Shown here piece after piece: positions 1,379 to 10,333 of a stretch of 33,928 bases of DNA. The DNA lies in contig JAVBXM010000047.1 of assembly GCA_030824585.1 (NCBI GenBank), positions 1 through 33,928 on the forward strand. The letters run 5' to 3'. Source of the DNA: Phaeospirillum sp. (GTDB lineage Bacteria; Pseudomonadota; Alphaproteobacteria; Rhodospirillales; Magnetospirillaceae). The position numbers were made by a program, and so were the translations under genes. How positions within the stretch are numbered: position 1 is the first letter of the stretch; the number at the start of each line of letters is the position of its first letter. The notes under the pieces were generated by a model. It did no database searches and was not told the DNA's origin. It saw only the letters and a list, made by a program, of their open reading frames with translations.

Positions 1379-1411
1379 ATGATCCGGCTAAGGGAGTTCA
1401 GGCCGGATCAT
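1379..1411. terminator. Inverted repeat between convergent genes, possible bidirectional terminator
   Basis: A perfect 10-bp inverted repeat (ATGATCCGGC at 1379-1388 and GCCGGATCAT at 1402-1411, 13-nt loop) sits just after the RND stop codon and spans the stop codon of the convergent 59-aa gene. There is no T-tract on either side, so intrinsic termination is only a guess. Confidence 0.3.
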
Positions 1412-1577
1412 CCTGCAACCGCTCCGACTCGGCAGGTGTCGATGGCAATTTCGGATCGGTCGGAGACAACACCAGCCAGTCGAAGCGGTCCGGATGGAAG
1501 TAGATATAGGCGTTGTAGGCCACGAAGGCGATCAACAGGCCGATGCCGATCAGCAGACCCAGCAGATCCTTATCCAT
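1398..1577 (-). CDS. Small single-pass membrane protein (59 aa), putative KdpE-regulon member
   Basis: I do not recognise this family. Translation on the minus strand from ATG 1577 gives 59 residues. After 'MDKD' comes one hydrophobic segment (about residues 5-27, 'LLGLLIGIGLLIAFVAYNAY'), followed by an aromatic boundary and a soluble acidic, Pro-rich tail ending 'SERLQDDPA'. A good ribosome-binding site (GGAGGA, 4 nt from the ATG) precedes it. It lies downstream of kdpE on the same strand with a 136-bp gap. That gap carries an element nearly matching the region upstream of the kdp operon (see 1632-1690), so expression under K+ limitation is likely. A role as a Kdp accessory or sensor-associated peptide is inference from position and promoter only. 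It is shorter than typical annotation cut-offs and may be unannotated. Confidence 0.72.
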   Translation of the reverse strand: MDKDLLGLLIGIGLLIAFVAYNAYIYFHPDRFDWLVLSPTDPKLPSTPAESERLQDDPA

Positions 1578-1713: not shown

Positions 1714-2397
1714 CTATTCCCCCCGCTTCAGGCGGTAGCCCACCCCGGCATCGGTGACGATCAGGGTCGGCGCCGCCGGATCGGTCTCCAGCTTCTGGCG
1801 CAACTGGTTGACGTAGACCCTTAAGTAAGCGGTGTCCTCGCCATGGGCCGGCCCCCAGACTTCCTTGAGGATCTGCTTGTGGGTCAGCACATGGTCGGGC
1901 CGGCTGGCCAGGAAGGCCAGCAGGCCCCATTCCCGCTTGGATAGATGCACCTCGGCACCGTCGCGGGTGACGATTCGCCGGCTCAGATCGATCAGCACCC
2001 CACCGACCTCGACCACGTCGTCATTGCCCTTGGCGGCGCGCTGGCGCAGCACGGCGCGGACCCGGGCCATCAGCTCGGCCACCCCGAACGGCTTGACGAT
2101 GTAGTCGTTGGCGCCCCGGTCGAGAGCCTCGACCTTATCCAGCTCTCCCGCCCGCACCGACAGCACGATAATGGGAACGTCGGAACGCTCGCGCACCGCG
2201 CTGATCACCTCCTGGCCATCGAGATCGGGCAGGCCGAGGTCAAGGATCAGCAGATCGGGTTGCTGGCTGTTGGCCGCTTCGATGCCCTGGGCGGCATTCT
2301 CGGCCTCGATCACCTCGTAGCCGTTGGCGGCAAGCGAAATCCGCATGAACTTGCGGATCTGCCGCTCGTCGTCGATCACCAGGATACGGGTACTCAT
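1714..2397 (-). CDS. kdpE: KdpE, response regulator of the Kdp K+ transport system
   Basis: OmpR/PhoB-type transcription factor, activated by phosphorylation from KdpD, that switches on the kdp operon at low K+. It is 227 aa, normal for KdpE. The receiver domain (about 1-120) has the acidic pair D9/D10, the phospho-acceptor D53 in 'LILDLGLPDLDG', S80 and the conserved K102 in 'YIVKPFG'. The winged-helix DNA-binding domain (about 130-225) contains 'LSKREWGLLAFLASRPDHVLT' and ends 'GVGYRLKRG'. The start ATG overlaps the kdpD stop (ATGA), indicating translational coupling. It is the last gene of the kdp run before the separately promoted 59-aa gene. A direct target is suggested by the KdpE-like repeats at 10503-10519. 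Confidence 0.95.
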   Translation of the reverse strand: MSTRILVIDDERQIRKFMRISLAANGYEVIEAENAAQGIEAANSQQPDLLILDLGLPDLDGQEVISAVRERSDVPIIVLSVRAGELDKVEALDRGANDYIVKPFGVAELMARVRAVLRQRAAKGNDDVVEVGGVLIDLSRRIVTRDGAEVHLSKREWGLLAFLASRPDHVLTHKQILKEVWGPAHGEDTAYLRVYVNQLRQKLETDPAAPTLIVTDAGVGYRLKRGE

Positions 2398-5111
2398 GGG
2401 CTCCCCTCCGGTTCGCCATCGGCGCTGATCCGCGCCGCCAGGACATCGATATCACCCTGTTGCGGCAAATGGATGATGATGGCGGTTCCGGCGCCGTGCA
2501 GGCCGGGTTCAGCCTTGATGGTGCCGCCATGAGCCTCGACGATGCCCCGGCAGATGGCCAGCCCCAGGCCGGTTCCCGCACTCTTCGAGTCACCCTGATC
2601 GACCCGATAGAACATGTCGAAGACCTTCTCGCTGGCCTCGGGCGGGATGCCGGGGCCCTGGTCGACCACCTCGATGGTGACGTAATCCGGGGCTCGCCGG
2701 GCCCAGACCTTGACCGCACTGCCCGGTGGCGAATACTTGCAGGCATTGTCGAGCAGGTTGAAGAACACCTGCTCCATCAGCACCGGATCGACGCAAAGCA
2801 GGGGAACTCCCGGATCGATCTCGATCCTGATGCTGTGGGCGCGGGCCAGACGCCGCATCCGGGTGACGGCGGCACCGACGATGTCGTTGAGGTCGGCCCA
2901 GTCGGCGCGGGGCTTCAGGGCGCCGGCCCCCAGCTTGGTCATGTCCAGCAGGTTCTGGACGAAGCGGTTGAGGCGGTCGGCCTCGTCCTGGATGGTCTGG
3001 GTCAGGTCGCGGCGGGCGGCATGGTCCATCATCTCGTCGTAGTTCTGCAAGGACGACGCCGCTCCCATGATGGAGACCAGCGGCGTCCTGAGATCGTGGG
3101 ACAGGGACGACAGCAGGGCGGACCGCAGGCGCTCGCGCTCGGTGGCGACGCGGGCGGTCTCGATATCGGCGACCAGGGTGGTGCGCTCGATGGCGACGGC
3201 AGCCTGATCGGCCAAGGTCTCCAGCAGACGCATCTGGGCCGGAGACGGAATGTCGGCATCCTCCGTCATCTGGACCCCCAGCACTCCCACCGGCCCGCGT
3301 CCGGTCTTCAGCGGCAGGAACAGCCACAGCGAGGCCGGCAGGGTCGCCGATCCCCGCCCCGCCAGCTTGCCATGGGCCCAGGCCCAGTCGGCGGCGGCGG
3401 CGGAGCGTTCATCCAACTGATCCTCGGGCGGGTAGCCGGCGACGATGGCCAGACCGGTCTCTCCCGGCAGCAGGACCAGCGACTTGGCCGTCATGGTGGT
3501 GGCGACGTGATGGACCACCGCCCACAGCACGTCGTCCTGGGTCGCCGCCGCCGTGACCTTGCGGCCGAAATCATAGAGATTGGTGGTGCGCCTGGCGCTT
3601 TCCCGCGTCGCCAGGATCTGGGCGCGCAGCCGCGACGCCATGTTGGAGACGATCACGGCGGCGATCAGGAAAAACACCAGGGTCAGCACGTTCTGGGTGT
3701 CGGTGACGGCGAAGGTCCATCGCGGTTCAGTGAAGAAGAAGTTGAAGGCGAAGAAGCAGCCCACCGAGGCCAGGATGGCGGGACGCAGGCCCGACCGCAT
3801 GGCCACCACCATCACCGCCAGCAAAAAGGCCACCGAGATGGAAGCGGTGGGAAGCCACCTGTCGATCAGAAAGCCGATTCCGGTGGCGATACCCGTGCAC
3901 AGCAGGGCGAAGGCAAGGTTGAGCCAGTCGGGTGGAACCTCGGCCTTTGGCCGCCGGATCGCCGGAACCGGCTTGTCCTCCTCCTCGCCTCCCACCACGA
4001 ACACGTTGAAGTCGCCGCTTTCGGCGAACAGCCGCTCGGTCACCGACTTGCCCAGCCGCCAGCGGCGGGGCCGGGCGCGACCGACCACGATCTGGGTGGC
4101 GTTGCGCTCGCGGGCATGGTTCAGAATGGTGGCGACCACGTCGTCGCCCTGCAGCAGAGCGGTTTCGCCCCCCAATTGCTGGGCCAGGCGCAGGGCCTCG
4201 GCGAGACGGTCCTTGTCGGCTTCGCTCAGCCCATGCGAACTCGACGTCTCCACCGTGACCACCACCCAGGCCGCCCCGCGCCGGTCGGCGGCCCGCTTGG
4301 CCACCCGCACCAGCTTGGCGGCGTCCACCCGCTCGTCGATGCAGACCATGATCCGCTCCCGCGTCGGCCACGGCCCCGGAATGGCGTGCTCACGCATGTA
4401 ATCGACCATCTGGGCGTCGACCCGCTCGGCGGCGTGGCGCAGCGCCATCTCACGCAGCGCGGTGAGGTTGCCGGGCGAGAAGAAATTGCCGACCGCCCGC
4501 TTGGCCTGCTCCGGGACATAGACCTTGCCTTCGTGCAGGCGCTTGATCAGTTCCTGGGGCGGCAGGTCGATCAACTCGATCTCGTCGGCCGAGGACAGCA
4601 CGCTGTCGGGCAAGGTCTCCCTCACCTTGACCCCGGAAATCTGCTCGACGATATCGTTGAGGCTTTCCAGGTGCTGGATGTTCAGCGTGCTGTAGACGTC
4701 GATGCCGGCGGCGAGGATTTCTTCAACGTCCTGCCAGCGCTTGAGATGGCGCGACCCCGGCACGTTGGTGTGGGCCAGTTCATCCACCAGCACCGTCTGG
4801 GGGCGGCGGGCGAGAATGACGTCCAGGTCCATCTCGCGGAAATCCTTGCCGCGATACTCCATCAGGCGGGGCGGCAGCACGTCGATATCGACCAACTGCG
4901 CCTCGGTCTCGCGCCGTCCATGGGTTTCGACCACCCCGGCGACCAGATCGACGCCGTCCCGCCGCCGTTCGCGCGCCGCTTGCAGCATGGCATAGGTCTT
5001 ACCCACGCCCGGGGCGGCGCCGAGAAAAATCTTCAGCCGCCCGCGCGATTCGCGCTGGGCGGCGGCCAGCAGGGCATCGGGGGACGGGCGTTCCTCGCGG
5101 TCATCGGTCAT
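2394..5111 (-). CDS. kdpD: KdpD, osmosensitive K+-channel sensor histidine kinase
   Basis: Membrane sensor kinase that phosphorylates KdpE under K+ limitation. With ATG 5111 it has 905 residues, close to E. coli KdpD (894). In order: N-terminal KdpD domain with Walker A 'GAAPGVGKT' (31-39) and 'VDELAHTN'; a universal-stress-like domain (about 255-375) with 'QIVVGRARPRRWR'; four closely spaced membrane helices (about 405-510, DUF4118 type); a GAF-like region; HisKA with phospho-acceptor H672 in 'LSHDLRTPLVSIMGA'; and a HATPase domain with 'FFNLLDNACKYSPPGS', 'DQGPGIP' and 'GTGLGLAICRGIVEAHGG'. ATG 5111 was chosen because it aligns with family N-termini; the frame extends upstream but would overlap the preceding gene. 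No clear ribosome-binding site is visible. The start is 10 nt after the upstream stop, so coupling is likely. Confidence 0.95.
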   Translation of the reverse strand: MTDDREERPSPDALLAAAQRESRGRLKIFLGAAPGVGKTYAMLQAARERRRDGVDLVAGVVETHGRRETEAQLVDIDVLPPRLMEYRGKDFREMDLDVILARRPQTVLVDELAHTNVPGSRHLKRWQDVEEILAAGIDVYSTLNIQHLESLNDIVEQISGVKVRETLPDSVLSSADEIELIDLPPQELIKRLHEGKVYVPEQAKRAVGNFFSPGNLTALREMALRHAAERVDAQMVDYMREHAIPGPWPTRERIMVCIDERVDAAKLVRVAKRAADRRGAAWVVVTVETSSSHGLSEADKDRLAEALRLAQQLGGETALLQGDDVVATILNHARERNATQIVVGRARPRRWRLGKSVTERLFAESGDFNVFVVGGEEEDKPVPAIRRPKAEVPPDWLNLAFALLCTGIATGIGFLIDRWLPTASISVAFLLAVMVVAMRSGLRPAILASVGCFFAFNFFFTEPRWTFAVTDTQNVLTLVFFLIAAVIVSNMASRLRAQILATRESARRTTNLYDFGRKVTAAATQDDVLWAVVHHVATTMTAKSLVLLPGETGLAIVAGYPPEDQLDERSAAAADWAWAHGKLAGRGSATLPASLWLFLPLKTGRGPVGVLGVQMTEDADIPSPAQMRLLETLADQAAVAIERTTLVADIETARVATERERLRSALLSSLSHDLRTPLVSIMGAASSLQNYDEMMDHAARRDLTQTIQDEADRLNRFVQNLLDMTKLGAGALKPRADWADLNDIVGAAVTRMRRLARAHSIRIEIDPGVPLLCVDPVLMEQVFFNLLDNACKYSPPGSAVKVWARRAPDYVTIEVVDQGPGIPPEASEKVFDMFYRVDQGDSKSAGTGLGLAICRGIVEAHGGTIKAEPGLHGAGTAIIIHLPQQGDIDVLAARISADGEPEGSP

Positions 5112-5121
5112 GTGGTCATGA

Positions 5122-5496
5122 TCACTTGTTCGGCCACCGGGAGTCCAATGCCTGATTGAGGGCTCGAATATCGAGGCCCGGGCCATTCACAATCAAGGCG
5201 TTCACCATTTGCCGCACCGAATCGGCGGGGATCCCGCGAGCGGCGGCGACACGCTTGATCTGGCCGGCAACCTCCTCGGGGAGAACCGTCGCGGATGCTC
5301 CGCCCGACCGGGCCTGGAAATAGCGGGAATCACCGGCCGCCCAATTGGTATCGGCGGATTCGGGTAGCCTGGGCGGGGCTTCGGCCTGCCGTGCGGACAT
5401 CTCATGGAGCAGAAACGTGGTGCCGGAGGCGAGAATCACCAGGACGACAAGCCGCCAGACGGACCGCAGTTGCTCATCCCGATAGGGATCGGTCAT
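5122..5496 (-). CDS. KdpC-like mini-protein (124 aa): membrane anchor plus KdpC-type C-terminal region
   Basis: Encoded between kdpC and kdpD, and not a standard Kdp subunit. A short cytoplasmic N-terminus ('MTDPYRDEQLRS') precedes one membrane helix ('VWRLVVLVILASGTTFLL'), a Pro/Ala/Ser-rich linker, and a C-terminal stretch resembling the end of KdpC. 'QIKRVAAARGIPADSVRQMV' parallels the KdpC 'Q..RVA.AR....A.LR.LV' helix, and the terminal 'ALNQALDSRWPNK' parallels 'KLNVVLDERWPRAK' of the KdpC encoded just upstream. KdpC's central domain, including 'ASGSGLDPHIS', is missing. At 124 aa against 205 it is neither a duplicate nor an obvious frameshifted fragment: the frame is intact, has GGGAG ahead of the ATG, and ends 10 nt before kdpD. 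It might modulate KdpFABC or link the pump to KdpD; this is inference. Confidence 0.75.
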   Translation of the reverse strand: MTDPYRDEQLRSVWRLVVLVILASGTTFLLHEMSARQAEAPPRLPESADTNWAAGDSRYFQARSGGASATVLPEEVAGQIKRVAAARGIPADSVRQMVNALIVNGPGLDIRALNQALDSRWPNK

Positions 5497-5587
5497 TGGC
5501 CTTCACTCCCTGTCGAAAGCACGATGATGGGCACAGTCGACTTTGCGTCCCCGACCGAGGCGAAAGCCCTCGGCCATGCTGCCGGCC

Positions 5588-6205
5588 CTATTTCGCCCGC
5601 GGCCAGCGCTCGTCCAGGACGACGTTAAGCTTCAGCACATTGATCCGGGCCTCGCCGAGAATGCCGAGCACCCGACCCTCGGTATGGCCTGCCACCAGGG
5701 CCCGCAACTCGGCCTCGGCCACATGGCGGGCCTTGGCGACGCGGGGAAGCTGGTATTCGACGGCAGCCGGGGAAATGTGCGGATCGAGGCCCGAGCCCGA
5801 GGCGGTGACCAGATCCACCGGTACCGGGATGCGGGCATCGGGATTCTCGGCCTTGAGCTGATCCACCAGGGCCTGGGTCGCCTCGATATAGGCCTTGGAA
5901 CTGGGCGAGGCGTTGGAACCCATGGAGTTGGAGGCGTTGTAAGGCGCCGGCACCGTCTTGGTCGCATCCGCCGGATCGGCACCGGTAGTGGCCGAGGGAC
6001 GCGGATGGAAGTAGTCCGGCCTGTCGAAGCCCTGGCCGATCAGGGCCGAGCCCACTACCCGGCCGTTCCTCTCGATCAGACTGCCGTGGGCCTGGGTCGG
6101 AAACAGGGTTCCGGCGATGCCGGTCATGGCCAGGGGATAGCCCAGACCCAGCAGCACGGTCAGCAGCAGGGTCAACAGGATGGCGGGAAGGATTTGCTTG
6201 ATCAT
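5588..6205 (-). CDS. kdpC: KdpC, K+-transporting ATPase subunit C
   Basis: Single-pass inner-membrane subunit that stabilises the KdpFABC complex and supports ATP-driven K+ uptake. It is 205 aa, in the family range. There is one N-terminal helix ('ILPAILLTLLLTVLLGLGYP'), then the periplasmic domain with 'NGRVVGSALIGQGF', 'YFHPRPSA', the signature 'ASGSGLDPHISPAA' and the C-terminal 'GEARINVLKLNVVLDERW'. A strong ribosome-binding site (GAGGAGAG) lies in the 17-nt gap after kdpB. About 91 bp separate it from the next gene, with only a weak 6-bp hairpin between. Confidence 0.96.
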   Translation of the reverse strand: MIKQILPAILLTLLLTVLLGLGYPLAMTGIAGTLFPTQAHGSLIERNGRVVGSALIGQGFDRPDYFHPRPSATTGADPADATKTVPAPYNASNSMGSNASPSSKAYIEATQALVDQLKAENPDARIPVPVDLVTASGSGLDPHISPAAVEYQLPRVAKARHVAEAELRALVAGHTEGRVLGILGEARINVLKLNVVLDERWPRAK

Positions 6206-6222: not shown

Positions 6223-8295
<2,073 letters not shown>

Positions 8296-8385
8296 GAAAG
8301 ATTTCCTTTGTTGTCCCTCAGGCGCCGGGCGCACGCCTCCGCGTGCTTGGCTCCCGCGCCACGGGGCGCGACGCGCGTTGCGCTT

Positions 8386-8412: not shown

Positions 8413-10140
8413 TTAGAACAGGGTGCCGGCGGTGAGCGCAAAGTGCTCGACGATGGGACCCAGGGCGAGAACGGGGAAGAAGGTCAGGCCGCCGATCACC
8501 ACGATCACCGCGATCAACAGGCCGATGAACAGCGAGCCGTGGGTGGGGAAGGTGCCCGCCGACGGCGGCACGATCCTCTTGGCCGCCAGCGACCCGGCGA
8601 TGGCGAGCGTCGGCACGATGATCAGGAAGCGGCCGATCAGCATGGCCGCCGCCAGGGTGGTGTTGTAGAACAAGGTGTTGCCCGACAGCCCACCGAAGGC
8701 CGAACCGTTGTTGCCGGTGGCCGAGGTATAGGCATACAGCACCTCGGACAGGCCATGCGGCCCGGGAGCGGCGATGGAGGCCAGCCCCACCGGCAGCACC
8801 ATGGCCAATGCCCCGAAGCCCAGGATGGACAGCGGGAAGATCAGGATGCACAGCACCGCCAGCTTGACCTCGCGGGCCTCCATCTTCTTGCCCAGGTATT
8901 CCGGGGTGCGGCCCACCATCAACCCGGCGATGAACACCGCGACGATGACGAAGACGATCATGCCGTGCAAACCTGCGCCGACGCCGCCGAAGATCACCTC
9001 GCCCAGCATCATGTTGACCATCGGCACCATGCCGCCCAGCGGCATGAAGCTGTCATGCATGGAATTGACCGCGCCGGTGGAGGTGCCGGTGGTGACGGCG
9101 GCGAACATGGCGGAATTGGCGATGCCGAACCGCACCTCCTTGCCTTCCATGTTGCCGCCCGGCGCCGTGTCGGTGGAGGCGATATCAACGCCCATGGCCT
9201 GGACCCGCGGATTGCCGCCGGCCTCGGCCCAATAGGCGAATCCGATGCCGGTCGCCAGCATCAGGGCCATGGCGATGTACAGCGCGCGGGCCTGCTTGCG
9301 GTCGCCGATCATGCGGCCGAAGGCGAACACCAGCCCGGCCGAGATCAGCAATTGCCCGGCCATTTCGATCAGATTGGTGAGCGCGGTGGGGTTCTCGAAG
9401 GGATGGGCGGAATTGGCGTTGAAGAAGCCGCCGCCATTGGTGCCCAGATGCTTGATCGCCACCTGGCTCGCCACCGGCCCTTGGGCGATCACCTGCCTGG
9501 CGCCCTCCAGCGTCGTCGCCTCGGCATAGGCGTCGAGGTTCTGCGGCATGCCCTGCCAGACCAGGGCCAGGGTGACCACCACCGCCAGCGGCAGCAGGAC
9601 GTAGAGGATGGAGCGGATGGAATCCACGTAGAAATTGCCCACCGTCTTGGCCTGCTTGCGCGCGAAGCCGCGCACCAGCGCCACCAGCACCGCCATGCCC
9701 GTCGCCGCCGAGGTGAAATTCTTCACCGTCATGCCCAGCATCTGGGTGAGGTAGGCCATGGTGCTTTCGCCGCCATAATTCTGCCAGTTGGTGTTGGTGG
9801 TGAAGCTGACGGCGGTGTTGAAGGCCAGATCGGGGGCGACGGCTGCCATCTCCGCCGGGTTGAGCGGCAGCAGCGCCTGCAGGCGCATCACCGCATACAT
9901 CAGCAGCAGCCCGATCACGCTGAACACCAGGGCCGAGAAGGCGTAGACCGTCCAATGCTGCTCCTGGTCGGGCTTGATCAGGCAGATCTTGTAGACGAGG
10001 CGCTCGATGGGACCCAGCACCGGATCGAGCCAGGTCTTCTCGCCCGTATAGACCCGGGCCATGTAGGCCCCCAAGGGGATCGCTCCCGCCGTGACCACGG
10101 CGAAAAAGATGACGATTTGCAGAATGCCGGCGGCGTTCAC
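8413..10140 (-). CDS. kdpA: KdpA, K+-binding and translocating subunit
   Basis: Channel-like inner-membrane subunit related to the SKT superfamily that binds K+ and passes it through the KdpFABC complex. I place the start at GTG 10140, which gives '[16 protein letters not shown]' (575 aa; E. coli KdpA is 557) and has GGGGAGAA ahead of it. An in-frame ATG at 10182 would put the intergenic hairpin inside the gene. Selectivity-filter regions are recognisable as '[20 protein letters not shown]', '[20 protein letters not shown]', '[14 protein letters not shown]' and '[15 protein letters not shown]'. About ten membrane helices are apparent. Two hairpins lie between kdpF and this start. Confidence 0.96.
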
Positions 10141-10153
10141 GGCCGTTCTCCCC

Positions 10154-10180
10154 GTGCAAACGGTGTTGCGCCGTTTGCAC
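10154..10180 (-). other. Stem-loop immediately upstream of kdpA
   Basis: A perfect 10-bp stem (GTGCAAACGG and CCGTTTGCAC) with a 7-nt loop ends a few nucleotides before the kdpA ribosome-binding site on the transcribed strand. Its position would allow it to affect kdpA translation initiation or protect a processed 5' end. No ligand-binding RNA class was recognised. Confidence 0.6.
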
Positions 10181-10207
10181 AATTCAATACGTTGGTGGGC
10201 CGATTCA

Positions 10208-10243: not shown

Positions 10244-10333
10244 CTAGAAGCGTTCGGGACGGACGAGGGCGTAGACCAGATAGGCCGCCAGACCCATTGC
10301 GGTGATGCCCCCCAGGATCAGATCGAGAGTCAT
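10244..10333 (-). CDS. kdpF: KdpF, small stabilising subunit of the Kdp ATPase (29 aa)
   Basis: One-helix peptide that stabilises the KdpABC complex in the inner membrane. Translation from ATG 10333 gives 29 residues, '[20 protein letters not shown]' followed by 'YALVRPERF', closely matching the KdpF pattern (hydrophobic helix, then 'GYLVYALxxxExF'). GAGGGGGG upstream serves as the ribosome-binding site and overlaps the stop region of the preceding 27-aa ORF. It is easily missed because of its length. Confidence 0.92.

Follow-up and report, generated by a model that had tools for sequence, protein, structure and literature searches.

The kdp operon on contig JAVBXM010000047.1 of Phaeospirillum sp. 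(GenBank assembly GCA_030824585.1; the whole 33,928-nucleotide stretch analyzed is referred to here as the window) raises the question of what is encoded by a small gene located between kdpC and kdpD and what its product might do beside a complete KdpC. We found that this product, here called mini-KdpC, is a KdpC-derived paralogue that falls into a separate group and is not a second KdpC subunit. The gene occupies positions 5122..5496 on the minus strand, from an ATG with AGGGAG at -15 to -10 to a TGA stop, and thus contains the intact frame of 124 amino acids proposed in an initial annotation of this DNA. The single membrane helix proposed there was recovered both as the only hydrophobic stretch (approximately residues 12-30) and as a helix at residues 5-38 of the AlphaFold model; it is followed by a YF motif at residues 59-60 and a KdpC-like three-helix C-terminal domain at residues 73-120. 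kdpC itself (5588..6205, minus strand) is full length: its product, the usual pump subunit, has 205 amino acids and scores 239.9 bits for Pfam KdpC. The mini gene is therefore an extra gene of the operon rather than a broken kdpC.

The initial annotation had derived mini-KdpC from KdpC on the strength of a similar C-terminal stretch. This likeness was confirmed by comparing mini-KdpC with the KdpC of the window (BLASTP E of 9e-6, from this one pairwise comparison). On its own, the window protein reached 19.7 bits (E of 8e-4) against Pfam KdpC (PF02669), under the curated cut-off of 24.1 bits, and a best E of 0.71 against the PDB. At the level of the family of mini proteins the relationship was significant: 11 of 13 members matched Pfam KdpC with E ≤0.01 (best 1.6e-10), the member from genome G001 cleared the cut-off with 30.8 bits, the family matched KdpC in the PDB with E of 4.6e-6, and comparison of the family profile with that of KdpC gave a probability of 98.8%. 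In a structure search with the AlphaFold model the top seven solved matches were all KdpC, so that profile and structure agree on the homology of the C-terminal domain; EF-hand proteins, which appeared from rank 8 on, were taken as chance likeness. A chance open frame could be ruled out, since homologues have the same protein at the same position.

The likeness had been described for the C terminus, but it extends further. Besides the membrane helix and, near the C terminus, LN..LD and two residues (Q and R) of the helix Q..RVA.AR, the mini proteins also keep the Y-F of the mid-KdpC motif YFHPRPSA. Other motifs were lost completely, as revealed by counts in 45 KdpC and 12 mini proteins (invariant columns being taken over 13 mini sequences). 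The Tyr-Pro that closes the KdpC membrane helix, GSL and RPSA occurred in 45/45 KdpCs, SGLDP in 44/45, G.LGE in 41/45, and PY.A..S and GS.LI within this range of 41-45/45, and each of them was found in 0/12 mini proteins. The center of KdpC (GLDPHIS) is therefore indeed missing, as had been noted; the lone GLD match among the mini proteins, PGLDI of the window, lies near the C-terminal end and is not the KdpC motif. The absence of Tyr-Pro, GSL, RPSA, PY.A..S, SGLDP and G.LGE weakens the earlier suggestion that mini-KdpC competes with KdpC as a subunit. Furthermore, Asp is invariant in 13/13 mini proteins at the place of KdpC Asn189, which is Asn in 44/45 KdpCs (the pairing is that of the profile comparison). 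Members of the mini group share a length of ∼98-124 amino acids, an N-terminal helix, the F of YF, Q-x-K, an R, and D...LN..L near the C terminus, and the window member fits this description; exceptions are G046, without a standard start ahead of the helix, and the G001 copy, which does not adjoin kdpD. Q-x-K was rejected as a signature of the group, the corresponding KdpC column being occupied by Pro (21), Lys (15), Ala (6), Gly (2) and Asn (1; n = 45). Overall, mini-KdpC resembles KdpC (PDB 5mrw, 6hrb and 7bgy, chain C) in its single N-terminal membrane helix, its YF motif, its three-helix C-terminal domain (Q...VA..R ... LN..LD) and its place ahead of kdpD, but differs in being 124 rather than 205 residues long, in coexisting with a full KdpC, in lacking the seven motifs listed above and in carrying Asp for Asn189.

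The position of the mini gene is conserved. In the window's family, kdpC was matched (E ≤1e-15) in 40 of 55 genomes at 46 places; we examined 44 of these loci, leaving out two partial ones of G007, and kdpD adjoined in 40 of the 44. Ten of the 44 loci, from the window's genus (G000, G041, G046 and G048) and from another genus of the family (G020, G023, G024, G025, G029 and G032), had a mini gene separating kdpC from kdpD. Searching the order (317 genomes) yielded two more with the same layout, G314 and G315 of another family, with the remaining matches assigned to KdpC by the length of their frames and the range matched. The initial annotation had pointed to conservation in relatives as support for the gene, and this support was obtained. 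One mini-KdpC of 98 amino acids was free-standing, being encoded in G001 (locus L076, G001:C257, frame ∼2773-3066) away from kdp and next to what we take, from its sequence, to be a lexA-like gene.

The gene was absent from G037 and G038 of the window's genus, was not found in G039 and G021, where kdp is present, and was not detected in the 208- to 307-base spacers of G050, G052 and G054. Fifteen genomes of the family had no kdpC match, and none of these contained an intact mini gene. When the profile was run against 385 genomes from the class (E ≤1e-6) and 398 from the phylum (E ≤1e-8), no further mini gene was found, the matches besides the window's lying in frames of at least 192 amino acids and being read as KdpC by length and match range, and plasmids gave no match. 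In a scan of a contig collection, a single-sequence query found nothing and the profile found seven relatives. The kdp locus of VBWB01000009.1 ('Stygiobacter sp.') equals that of G025, with an identical mini protein; G025 is placed in the window's family, and the title looks like that of a mislabelled metagenome bin. In G005, a genome without a kdpC match, a region (G005:C61:7168-7404) with two internal stops weakly matched the free-standing copy (E of 8.5e-4).

The mini protein is under constraint, strong in two lineages and weak in the window's genus. Ratios of nonsynonymous to synonymous substitution (dN/dS) were estimated by NG86 for 13 pairs, with kdpD compared over its first 1398 bases. 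For the mini gene, G023, G024 and G032 gave 0.15-0.20, G314-G315 gave 0.20, and G020, G025 and G029 gave 0.26-0.36; pairs from the window's genus ranged over 0.30-0.50, with 0.46 between the window and G041. The same 13 pairs had kdpC at 0.14-0.44 and kdpD at 0.06-0.17. In the G023/G024/G032 and G314/G315 groups the mini gene was thus on par with kdpC (0.14-0.27). Seven pairs were also simulated under neutrality, with 2000 runs each and two transition rates; the observed values fell below neutral in all seven, with P ≤0.0005 for six and 0.002-0.006 for window-G041. For this last pair, 23-26% of the neutral runs were also stop-free, so that the absence of stops alone is uninformative there.

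How the operon acquired its extra gene is suggested by remains of a second kdpE. An intact, divergent second kdpE frame is present between kdpC and kdpD in G035 (L035) and G004a (L038), with 56% and 50% identity, respectively, to the KdpE of the window, giving two response regulators per operon. Partial remains were found in G008a (start only, where the contig ends), in G046 (a copy with an internal deletion) and in G020 (a C-terminal tail), with a possible start in G029 judged by eye. The window itself retains such a relic in the 91 bases that separate kdpC from the mini gene (5497..5587, minus strand), which also contain the ribosome-binding-site-like AGGGAG near the ATG: 51 of these bases match the intergenic kdpE copy of G046 at 47 positions (0/500 shuffles as good). 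Four second KdpEs formed one clade (support 99/95) with long branches; a regulator following a second kdpC in G006 (37% identical, with no kdpD found beside it) had a very long branch and was excluded from this group. None of the 44 loci combined an intact second kdpE with an intact mini gene, the G008a locus ending with its contig. In G046 (L034), the deletion within the second kdpE joins the receiver-coding half and the mini gene into one reading frame. Its 250-amino-acid product would consist of a receiver, then a linker, the membrane helix and mini-KdpC, with Glu at the position where Asp normally accepts the phosphate.

The order kdpC-kdpE'-mini-kdpD-kdpE is the one expected from a tandem copy of kdpC-D-E minus the inner kdpD. 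We infer that the mini gene probably arose in this way: the kdpC-kdpD-kdpE segment would have been duplicated in tandem, the inner kdpD lost and the extra kdpE degraded in most lineages, while the second KdpC would have shrunk by two blocks (approximately residues 30-60 and 75-140), retaining its membrane anchor, the YF of YFHPRPSA and the C-terminal three-helix domain. In a tree built on 76 columns, the 13 mini proteins separated from the 45 KdpCs with support of 94/96, which fits a single origin, although the small number of columns and the long branches make this less certain. Very short tail-like peptides encoded in the G004a and G037 spacers hint that the mini gene may have been lost in these lines.

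The duplication route also bears on the junction with kdpD (2394..5111, minus strand). The mini gene ends 10 bases ahead of the conserved kdpD ATG at 5111; the two genes do not overlap, but translational coupling, which the initial annotation had asserted, is still plausible. Across the 12 in-operon mini genes, this distance is 10 bases in 9 and 9 bases in 3. At 10 of the 30 mini-less loci with kdpD, the kdpC stop lies exactly 10 bases before kdpD (the other 20 range from 11 bases to >2 kb). The mini gene thus occupies the usual place of kdpC ahead of kdpD, with the same junction length, and its adjacency to kdpD is explained by descent. Being probably inherited, this adjacency is no argument for a function at KdpD.

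The full gene order is kdpF, kdpA, kdpB, kdpC, mini gene, kdpD and kdpE, all on the minus strand. From sequence and neighbors we take 6223..8334 to be kdpB, the P-type ATPase subunit, and 1714..2397 (227 amino acids) to be the usual kdpE response regulator gene, in keeping with its place in the operon; from sequence, 8413..10182 is presumably kdpA, the channel-like subunit, which probably starts downstream of the TTG listed for it, and 10244..10333 presumably kdpF, a single-span peptide of 29 amino acids. Downstream of kdpE, the window contains an unexplained 59-amino-acid single-span frame (1398-1577, minus strand).

As a whole, these observations are best explained by a trimmed second kdpC copy whose product would dock on and tune the Kdp pump, a reading to which we assign a probability of roughly 0.4. 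Mini-KdpC would reside in the inner membrane with its C-terminal domain in the periplasm, as in KdpC, and may dock on KdpFABC via this inherited domain, adjusting the stability, K+ affinity or shut-off of the pump. Because it is encoded in the same operon, it would be made in step with pump and sensor. Some findings from the window's genus weigh against this reading. Constraint there is weak, with dN/dS of 0.30-0.50 for the mini gene where the same pairs give 0.08-0.34 for kdpC and kdpD, and the codon-position test for window-G041 gave 20, 20 and 33 differences (p = 0.056). The gene is also truncated in G035, lacks its own ATG, GTG or TTG ahead of the helix in G046 and is missing altogether in G037 and G038, so that breakage in close relatives, which the initial annotation had named as refuting its reading, is in part what we found. 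Together with the decay of the extra kdpE alongside, this could mean that the mini gene, at least in this genus, is a functionless leftover of the duplication not yet destroyed. We regard this as rather unlikely, since the window and G041 differ by no insertion or deletion across 372 bases of the mini gene while the preceding spacer measures 91 versus 21 bases, their dN/dS is below the neutral expectation, and the other lineages with values of 0.15-0.20 constrain the gene as much as kdpC.

A role at the sensor was also considered. The initial annotation had proposed that mini-KdpC relays pump status to KdpD, and an adaptor of this kind could bind the membrane part of KdpD or a KdpD-pump complex and report the state of the pump or external K+. 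KdpD drives transcription and also inhibits the pump directly by phosphorylating Ser162 of KdpB (PMC11018627), so that pump and sensor do meet; the constant 9-10 bases to kdpD in all 12 in-operon genes and the shared frame with a KdpE receiver in G046 point in the same direction. The link nevertheless comes down to position, for which descent from kdpC accounts if the duplication route is right, given the same 10-base junction in mini-less loci, and the free-standing G001 copy has no kdpC or kdpD match at threshold within the surrounding 5850 bases; we therefore consider such an adaptor unlikely. The near-constant spacing might instead reflect a role only in cis, in which the open frame hands ribosomes from kdpC to kdpD and the protein is unimportant. 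This is very improbable, since 10 mini-less loci have kdpD directly after kdpC at equal distance and need no relay, and since the amino acid sequence is constrained and a copy exists elsewhere in G001. That same copy, the loss of most pump-specific motifs and the invariant Asp would suit recruitment of the C-terminal domain to another periplasmic task, outside the Kdp pump. Such a function appears improbable, as 12 of the 13 aligned copies reside in kdp operons, and genomes of the family without a kdpC match contain no intact mini gene, the weak G005 match being interrupted. Finally, duplication of kdpC and a response-regulator gene may have created a new small regulatory P-type ATPase subunit, a KdpC C-terminal domain with an anchor of its own, that binds the pump or a pump-KdpD assembly with feedback, the receiver fusion in G046 being a trace of this partnership; we view this more specific proposal as quite doubtful.

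Pump tuning by mini-KdpC would have parallels. Phospholamban, FXYD proteins and KdpF are small single-span partners of P-type ATPases, and mini-KdpC resembles them in being small and single-spanning, in being encoded together with a pump or acting on one, and in its possible tuning role. Unlike them, it carries a folded, soluble domain that descends from a different pump subunit, and it is not known to be related to them in sequence. KdpQ and KdpN are likewise extra or altered genes of kdp operon variants; they are not known to be KdpC-derived. Among the open-access papers listed, none mentions a second, truncated or KdpC-like small protein. Two reports still describe what KdpC does in the pump as elusive or uncertain and liken it to beta subunits that raise ion affinity (PMC8385062, PMC6255902). 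A KdpC shortened by nature and maintained by selection alongside the complete protein offers a tool for probing this subunit: it shows which part of KdpC survives when the rest is dropped and gives direct access to the question of whether the C-terminal domain can bind or tune the pump by itself. It also suggests a route by which a small pump-associated protein may arise, through operon duplication followed by trimming, of which the living relatives likely preserve intermediate stages, with the extra KdpE intact, broken, fused or gone.
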